IMG/VR virus record: IMGVR_UViG_3300042924_000296
Coordinates: 1 to 34,626 of that record
Source: a virus
Reading direction: 5' to 3' (one strand)
Length of the DNA stretch: 34,626 nucleotides
Position 1 is the stretch's first letter. Each line of letters begins with the position of its first letter. Below, one piece after another: positions 3,300 to 8,076 of this stretch. The notes beneath the pieces were generated by a model. It searched no databases. It saw only the letters and a list, made by a program, of their open reading frames with translations, and had not been told where the DNA came from. The position numbers were made by a program, and so were the translations under genes.

Positions 3300-3310
3300 C
3301 TTTGCGTCCT

Positions 3311-3526
3311 ATGAACACACAAATACCACCAGATGAGCGCCGACAACTGGCAGAAAAAGTTGGCATCAATGAGCAATACCTTTACCAATGTCTTACCGGC
3401 AGGCGTGAAATGTCAGCTTGGGAGGCTGTTCGGGTAGAGCAGCAGACCGAAGGGCGGGTGAACCGCAAGATGGTGTGCCAGGGTAGTTGGCAGTCTATTT
3501 GGCCAGAACTTGTGGAGCAAACGTGA
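3311..3526 (+). CDS. small helix-turn-helix (Cro/YdaS-like) regulator
   Basis: A 71-residue protein. Residues 9-45 (ERRQLAEKVGINEQYLYQCL and on to EMSAWEAVRVE) match the helix-turn-helix layout of YdaS- or Cro-type regulators: a LAEKVGI turn, a recognition helix with QYLYQ, then TGRREMS and a final helix with the A-x-x-VE pattern. It probably binds the operator-like sites just upstream and switches between the two divergent operons. ATG 3311 was chosen; an upstream TTG at 3302 is less likely. No clear Shine-Dalgarno is seen. Its TGA overlaps the GTG start of the methyltransferase (GTGA). No larger CI-like repressor is present. Confidence 0.78.
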   Translation: MNTQIPPDERRQLAEKVGINEQYLYQCLTGRREMSAWEAVRVEQQTEGRVNRKMVCQGSWQSIWPELVEQT

Positions 3527-4255
3527 ATGAGTTGGCACTATTTGCGGGTGCAGGGGGGGGAATCCTCGCAGGACATTTGCTTGGGTGGCGAACCGTGTGC
3601 GCCGTTGAAATCGAAGATTACCCACGCCGAGTTTTACTGCAACGGCAAGCTGATGGATTCTTACCTAAATTCCCTATCTGGGACGACATTTGCACATTCG
3701 ATGGAAAGCCCTGGCGAGGAAAAGTCGACATCGTCACAGGCGGTTTTCCATGCCAGGACATTAGTGCCGCAGGAAAAGGCGCAGGACTTGATGGAGAGCG
3801 ATCAGGACTCTGGGGAGAAATGGCAAGGGTCATTTGCGAAGTACGACCCAGCTACGCATTCATTGAGAACTCACCAATGCTCACTATTCGAGGACTCGAC
3901 AGAGTTTTGTGCGACCTTGCCCAAATGGGGTTTGATGCTGAATGGGGAGTGCTGGGAGCAGCAGACGTTGGAGCATTCCACCAGAGGGATCGAATCTGGA
4001 TTGTCGCCAAACTTGCCCCCCCCCCTCGAAATGGCCAACACCAACAACACCAAGCGGAGGCGGGAATGTAGGCGGCTCTGGAGCGTACAAAAATGCAATC
4101 AAGAATGGAACTCATATTCCACATTCAATCAACCCGAGCCTATACGAATGGTTGATGGGGTGGCCAACAGGGTGGACAGACTTAAGTGCGCGGGTAACGG
4201 CCAAGTGGCCCTTTGCGCAGCAACAGCATGGAAATTACTCAGTGAAAGAATTTAA
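3523..4255 (+). CDS. DNA cytosine-5 methyltransferase, frame broken at a C10 run
   Basis: Cytosine-5 DNA methyltransferase. Visible motifs: I (LFAGAGGG, residues 6-13), IV with the catalytic Cys77 (GGFPCQDIS), VI as ENS (115-117, usually ENV), and VIII (QRDRIWIVA, 154-162). The start is GTG 3523, overlapping the previous TGA, with GGAG six bases upstream. The frame runs into C10 (4016-4025) and would stop at 4071 without motif X. Dropping one C continues into ANTNNTKRRREC and then the motif X-like GNGQV, ending at TAA 4253-4255 with 243 residues. It probably protects phage DNA from host nucleases. Whether the C10 is an assembly error or a real off-state is open. Confidence 0.85.
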
Positions 4256-4262
4256 TGACTAA
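3527..4262 (+). CDS. overprinted ORF on the methyltransferase gene, second frame
   Basis: A second reading frame over the whole methyltransferase. ATG 3527 lies four bases after the GTG start and can use the same GGAG. The frame is open from 3527 and has protein-like features: FAKYDPATHSLRTHQCSLFE, FCATLPKWGLMLNGECWEQ, and, after removing one C of the C10 run, WPTPTT and INPSLYEWLMGWPTGWTDL, ending at TAA 4260-4262 (about 244 residues). I recall phage proteins with these motifs annotated separately or as methyltransferases, which I could not check here. One base deletion restores both frames. Function unknown; it could modulate or complete target recognition. Confidence 0.55.
4016..4025 (+). 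other. C10 homopolymer, shared frameshift point of two overlapping frames
   Basis: Ten consecutive C follow motif VIII of the methyltransferase. With ten, both overlapping frames lose their C-terminal regions. With nine, both regain them. Long C tracts are prone both to assembly error and to slippage during replication or transcription. Confidence 0.85.
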
Positions 4263-7996: not shown

Positions 7997-8031
7997 GGGG
8001 GGGGGTAGGGCCGGAGGGAAAGGGCCGCGGG
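7997..8031 (+). other. G-quadruplex-forming motif
   Basis: Five G-runs of three or more (7997-8005, 8008-8010, 8016-8018, 8022-8024 and 8029-8031) are separated by loops of 2, 5, 3 and 4 bases. This fits the usual G3-N1-7 rule. It lies between the DnaA-like boxes and the AT-rich tract. Confidence 0.6.
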
Positions 8032-8076
8032 AACGGTAGCCCCGCGAACATTTTTAAATTTTTTTTTAATAAATAA

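Follow-up and report, generated by a model that had tools for sequence, protein, structure and literature searches.

The dual-coded gene

The window, by which we mean the whole 34,626-nucleotide stretch of viral DNA analysed (IMG/VR record IMGVR_UViG_3300042924_000296), comes from a phage with a P22-like portal and an Sf6-like small terminase. As seen in its sequence and ORF translations, two forward frames are open over one 740-base stretch at 3523-4262. Frame A (alpha) starts with GTG at 3523 and begins MNELALFAGAGGG, followed by GGFPCQDIS, ENSPML and QRDRIWIVAK; its motif I reads FAGAGGG, and PCQ, ENSP and QRDR are also present. Frame B (beta) starts with ATG at 3527, +1 relative to frame A, and is open up to a run of cytosines and past it. 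This C10 run (4016-4025) pushes both frames out of register by +1 in the window record: as the sequence stands, frame A ends at 4071 and the N-terminal part of frame B passes into the frame that holds motif X of A (stop 4253-4255). With nine C instead of ten, A has 243 amino acids and B has 244. The first-pass annotation had described two overlapping open frames on a methyltransferase gene, had placed motifs I, IV, VI, VIII and X in the first and had proposed that one C at 4016-4025 be removed; the frames are open as it described, the motifs are present in frame A, and the correction restores both proteins. The features of the gene are as follows.

3514..3529, + strand: shared start region, with GGAG at 3514-3517, GTG of A at 3523 and ATG of B at 3527 (from the sequence)
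3523..4015, + strand: frame A (alpha), catalytic part; PF00145 E 2e-28, phrog_363 E 1e-65, and M.HhaI/M.HaeIII by sequence and fold
3541-3561, 3742-3756, 3865-3876 and 3979-4008, + strand: frame A motifs I, IV (PCQ), VI (ENSP) and VIII (QRDR)
3527..4015, + strand: frame B (beta), N-terminal part, residues 1-163; phrog_1008 E 2.6e-14
3553..3560, + strand: G8 run over motif I, in frame in the window; G10-G17 at about the same place in relatives
3833-3961, + strand: conserved FAKYDP...RTHQCSL...LPKWGLMLNGECWEQ of frame B, where synonymous sites of A are conserved at 0.75-0.83
4016..4025, + strand: C10 run directly downstream of motif VIII, where the catalytic and recognition parts meet; the closest relatives have C10-C13
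4026..4262, + strand: C-terminal part of frame B, which the window record has in its third frame; phrog_26627; stop 4260-4262
4032-4049 and 4146-4184, + strand: frame B WPTPTT and motif IX-like EWLMGWPTGWTDL; aligns with the single-chain Ramsey enzyme; synonymous sites 0.885
4026..4255, + strand: frame A, C-terminal part, a low-complexity linker and motif X (GNGQVALCAATAW from 4193); phrog_363 covers it to residue 239

The two starts are 4 bases apart, with GGAG 5 and 9 bases upstream of them, and the arrangement xTGAATGAG, with the ATG of B at a +4 offset from the start of A, is found in 74 of 90 distinct relatives. A small helix-turn-helix (HTH) gene lies just upstream (3302-3526), its TGA at 3524-3526 overlapping the start of frame A (GTGA); its product is YdaS/Cro-like, under the Pfam cut-off, and matches the repressor family phrog_35.

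Protein-level constraint on the second frame

Relatives were gathered with B as the query and, against sampling bias, with A alone, which gave 80 loci. Over the gene, frame B is stop-free in these 80 loci, with two exceptions: L169 has one stop, and in a few loci whose extrapolated start is one or two bases out the first codons contain stops. The +2 frame of the same loci has 7-22 stops. When synonymous codons were shuffled with the A protein and codon use kept (500 shuffles per gene, 49 genes), 5.8 stops in B were expected on average. All 49 genes have none, a value that no more than 1 of the 500 shuffles attained for any gene. Extra open frames are common in GC-rich phages, and even the +2 frame lacks stops in the alpha genes of Poompha and TelAviv, which would suit a second frame opened by chance or codon bias. 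Given the stops in the +2 frame of the window family and the suppressed synonymous divergence described below, such an origin is hardly credible, and the A-only set of loci together with the permutation test rules it out for practical purposes. The many second-frame stops in homologues that the first-pass annotation had held up as counterevidence were found only in the first part of distant split or fused actinophage genes and are absent from the window family.

The double frame is genuine and under strong selection, with constraint on B at the protein level. The window and the related loci L001, L019 and L032 all carry the same downstream primase-helicase gene. Among these four, 1-18% of the fourfold sites of A (residues 1-163) differ, compared with 24-45% in the primase-helicase gene (pairwise Fisher tests, p 1.6e-4 to 1.1e-7); synonymous divergence in A is lower than in this neighbouring gene by a factor of 2.3-20. 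Recent recombination or transfer was considered as the source of this low divergence and rejected because, between the window and L001, amino-acid change in A (7 of 163) exceeds that in the primase-helicase (11 of 688). The comparison of synonymous and amino-acid change in related phages, which had been suggested at the outset, thus found suppressed synonymous sites in A and a constrained B.

Across 23 divergent relatives, fourfold identity is 0.54-0.61 at about B residues 1-95, 0.75-0.83 under the YDP...WGLM...GECWE block of B and 0.885 under EWLMGWPxGWTDL, as motif IX reads in the B family, against an expectation at saturation of 0.26-0.27 with the codon use of the flanks or 0.32-0.36 with that of the genes themselves; the 0.46 at B residues 146-165 gauges the share that may be plain relatedness. 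A-silent changes are conservative for B at residues 106-145 (BLOSUM +1.57 over alternatives, compared with +0.13 for frame C). This tendency is weak at 2-60 and 146-205, and it is absent from 61-105 and from the few sites that vary within 206-246; constraint on about residues 60-105 of B is weak. The relatives' pairs in the fourfold-identity, BLOSUM and shuffling tests are not independent, so the BLOSUM-test p-values are indicative only. A shuffling test of B conservation by region is not phylogeny-aware and also gives frame C high scores, and the fourfold-site tests were used in its place.

Relation to split and single-chain methyltransferases

Frame A is a cytosine-5 DNA methyltransferase (Dcm), with the SAM-binding motif I, the PCQ nucleophile loop, the ENV/ENS motif VI, the QRxR motif VIII and the GN of motif X. 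Two features of the monomeric form, motif IX and the recognition domain, are absent from chain A, and motif IX is found in B. In the AF2 model of the L001 alpha, residues 168-215, between motifs VIII and X, are disordered and are followed by the motif X helix at 216-245; judged by this model, the segment is too short for a recognition domain, and the predicted fold has none.

The suggestion of the first-pass annotation that the second frame resembles separately annotated phage proteins was borne out when the database search it proposed was run: frame B matches phrog_1008 ('DNA methyltransferase') and phrog_26627, and its relatives include the second genes of actinophage pairs. Profile searches gave no Pfam or NCBIfam model for B. 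Modelled on its own with AF2, B gives a poor structure (pLDDT 46.5) that has no PDB match by Foldseek, and the recognition role of B is for this reason putative and rests on sequence.

Five actinophages (Cookiedough, TelAviv, Sebastisaurus, Andrew and Relief) have two adjoining genes, each annotated as DNA methylase or methyltransferase, with the second gene +1 to the first in 5/5 and overlaps of 23-239 bases. Motifs I-VIII lie in the first gene, and most second genes carry SETWPTSGMxRNG, LPTPxAxD repeats, motif IX (EWMMGWPDGWVTD) and motif X (GNGVCPQQA). Both window-type B proteins and these actinophage betas are taken in by phrog_1008; the B of Acinetobacter phage ABMM1 aligns with TelAviv gp5 (E 1e-14), and positions 212-374 of phrog_116 are matched by A and 375-491 by the actinophage betas. 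Mycobacterium phage Ramsey gp69 (L260) holds the same alpha and beta families in one chain and one frame, its residues 1-442 matching phrog_363 and 289-446 phrog_1008, with a further match to phrog_116. Because the C-terminal half of the Ramsey chain gave no Pfam or PDB alignment, motif IX was assigned by motif and PHROG links. Based on the phrog_1008 and phrog_116 matches and the natural fusion of both families in Ramsey, A and B are predicted counterparts of the two halves of one enzyme.

We therefore favour the reading, with a probability of roughly 0.85, that the two proteins from this stretch are the catalytic and recognition parts of one heterodimeric methyltransferase that would work like M.EcoHK31I. 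We infer that both frames are translated: one mRNA could give both chains, because the two starts share one ribosome-binding site. Alpha would provide SAM binding, the catalytic cysteine and motif X, and beta the target-recognition region and motif IX; the two would assemble on DNA into one active enzyme, which would probably methylate the phage's own DNA against host restriction. Self-protection appears the likely role because no restriction gene was noticed among the scanned ORFs, a part of those in the window. That the window copy is itself out of frame counts against this explanation.

Two other readings have to be weighed against the heterodimer. B might be a separate protein with its own function (e.g. 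anti-restriction) that arose de novo by overprinting of an ordinary methyltransferase gene, as its annotation on its own as 'hypothetical protein' in some phages (Vibrio phage 1.291.O and Pseudomonas phage phPA-G) and the absence of any counterpart to its N-terminal 100 residues in single-chain enzymes could suggest. However, the C-terminal half of B has its homologue in the C-terminal half of single-chain enzymes, which holds the recognition region and motif IX, exactly the parts missing from alpha, and B has homologues outside the overlap, as a de novo orphan would not; we consider an independent protein unlikely. The earlier proposal of dual coding over a whole enzyme gene thus stands, but its second part, birth of the second protein by overprinting, does not hold in the sense of a new protein with a separate function. 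Slippage or frameshifting at a homopolymer could instead yield one protein that joins the catalytic part of A to the recognition part of B, as in single-chain enzymes. In L019, L032 and L036, which have C11, motifs I-VIII of A do continue into the C-terminal part of B, and run lengths differ among near-identical genes; yet the fused product would be without motif X, and 51 of 98 distinct relatives have no G/C run of at least 8, although both frames stay open gene-wide in the family and beta's own ATG is conserved. A single fused protein is therefore very improbable, and the heterodimer remains our preferred reading.

As a kind, the two-polypeptide enzyme has been known since 1995. The small polypeptide of M.EcoHK31I is encoded in a different reading frame within the gene for the large one, and beta of the window likewise lies in another frame of the alpha gene. 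In M.EcoHK31I (YGGCCR; Lee, Kam and Shaw 1995) the large chain has motifs I-VIII and X and the small chain motif IX (PMC3404938), a division that the window family shares. The recognition domain of M.EcoHK31I is predicted in the large subunit (PMC3404938), whereas the window alpha has only a short, disordered segment between VIII and X, and it is beta that has the recognition-like repeats; the window frames, unlike those of M.EcoHK31I, are nearly co-extensive. By description the window gene would work alike, but it is not filed as a member of the M.EcoHK31I type because the recognition domain is not in the large subunit. M.AquI (CYCGRG) consists of two subunits split after motif VIII within the variable region (PMC3404938); its small subunit holds motif IX as well as motif X, whereas motif X of the window gene is in alpha, which sets the gene apart from that type as well. 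The actinophage pairs (L173-L177), with motif X in their betas, do resemble M.AquI. The ShiLan element is a further case of out-of-frame coding within a mycobacteriophage methylase gene (PMC11855218), but what is hidden there is an HNH homing endonuclease, an insertion and not a part of the enzyme. The open-licence papers searched yielded no description of overlapping alpha/beta methyltransferases in phages, nor of the co-extensive overlap, its breadth or the hypermutable runs described below. The overlap would be among the broadest long same-strand overlaps known outside small viruses, each of its frames encoding one of two interlocking halves of an enzyme.

Spread of the overlap and homopolymer runs

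Contigs with the +1 pair come from Acinetobacter, Pseudomonas, Halomonas, Chromobacterium, Rhizobiales, Planctomycetota and Dictyobacter and from archaeal MAGs. Vibrio phage 1.091.O (L089 3652-4563) carries, besides the dual-coded gene, another cytosine methylase gene about 1 kb farther downstream. In the distant split or fused actinophage genes, +1 stops occur only in about the first 120 codons (codons 30, 74, 107, 112 and 116 in Ramsey; 9, 73, 78 and 111 in Cookiedough); in Spikelee, BF1-TP2, S72 and phiGT1 they are confined to roughly the first 40 codons and the region near the end, and the +1 frame of the window family is without stops. This pattern is a graded series of overlap. Presumably A is ancestral in the 5' half and the recognition region of B in the 3' half, and overprinting was probably reciprocal, with the N-terminal part of B laid over the catalytic domain of A and the linker of A over the recognition domain of B. 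Since single-chain, split, partly and wholly overlapped forms coexist, the route of gene splitting and overprinting would be directly readable. Gordonia phage JKSyngboy (L261 1132-2196) has the catalytic part and motifs IX and X in one frame, with unannotated recognition repeats (PTPQASD...LPTPEAK) in +1 over the linker. As automatic annotation retains one frame only, beta subunits are left out or 'hypothetical' in many phages, and orphan methyltransferases assayed as alpha alone may look inactive.

Among 97 relatives, G/C runs of at least 8 number 49 in 79.6 kb of methyltransferase genes versus 3 in 421 kb of flanks, a density about 87 times higher in the gene, and such runs are present in 47 of 98 distinct genes. 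They lie over motif I, at about base 253, at the end of motif VIII and at about base 600. Their lengths differ in near-identical genes (G10, G11, G12 and G15 in one cluster; C12/C13; C10/C11), and both frames are intact at the C run in L001 and L002. Bacterial genomes and named phages have only a small excess (4 in 81 kb versus 9 in 463 kb), and the abundance of runs is therefore a trait of the window clade and not of dual coding as such. The variation in length reflects either slippage switches or sequencing noise. A tentative and rather doubtful extension of the heterodimer is a frame switch in the reciprocally overprinted enzyme, in which the G/C runs would slip among three states: the heterodimer, a fusion of alpha catalytic and beta recognition parts, and a fusion of the beta N-terminus with motif X. 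If this were true, methylation of the phage DNA would be phase-variable.

The C11 loci read as a single chain, alpha catalytic part in frame with beta recognition part and no motif X. In one bacterial contig, from a Gallionella MAG (L245 3001-3984), the frames are swapped: the N-terminal part of beta lies in the frame of alpha and joins it at a G9 run (3246). The window has three G/C runs of at least 7, two in the methyltransferase gene (3553-3560 and 4016-4025) and one outside it, a G9 at 7997-8005 that is followed by a T9 at 8059-8067 just before the large terminase gene.
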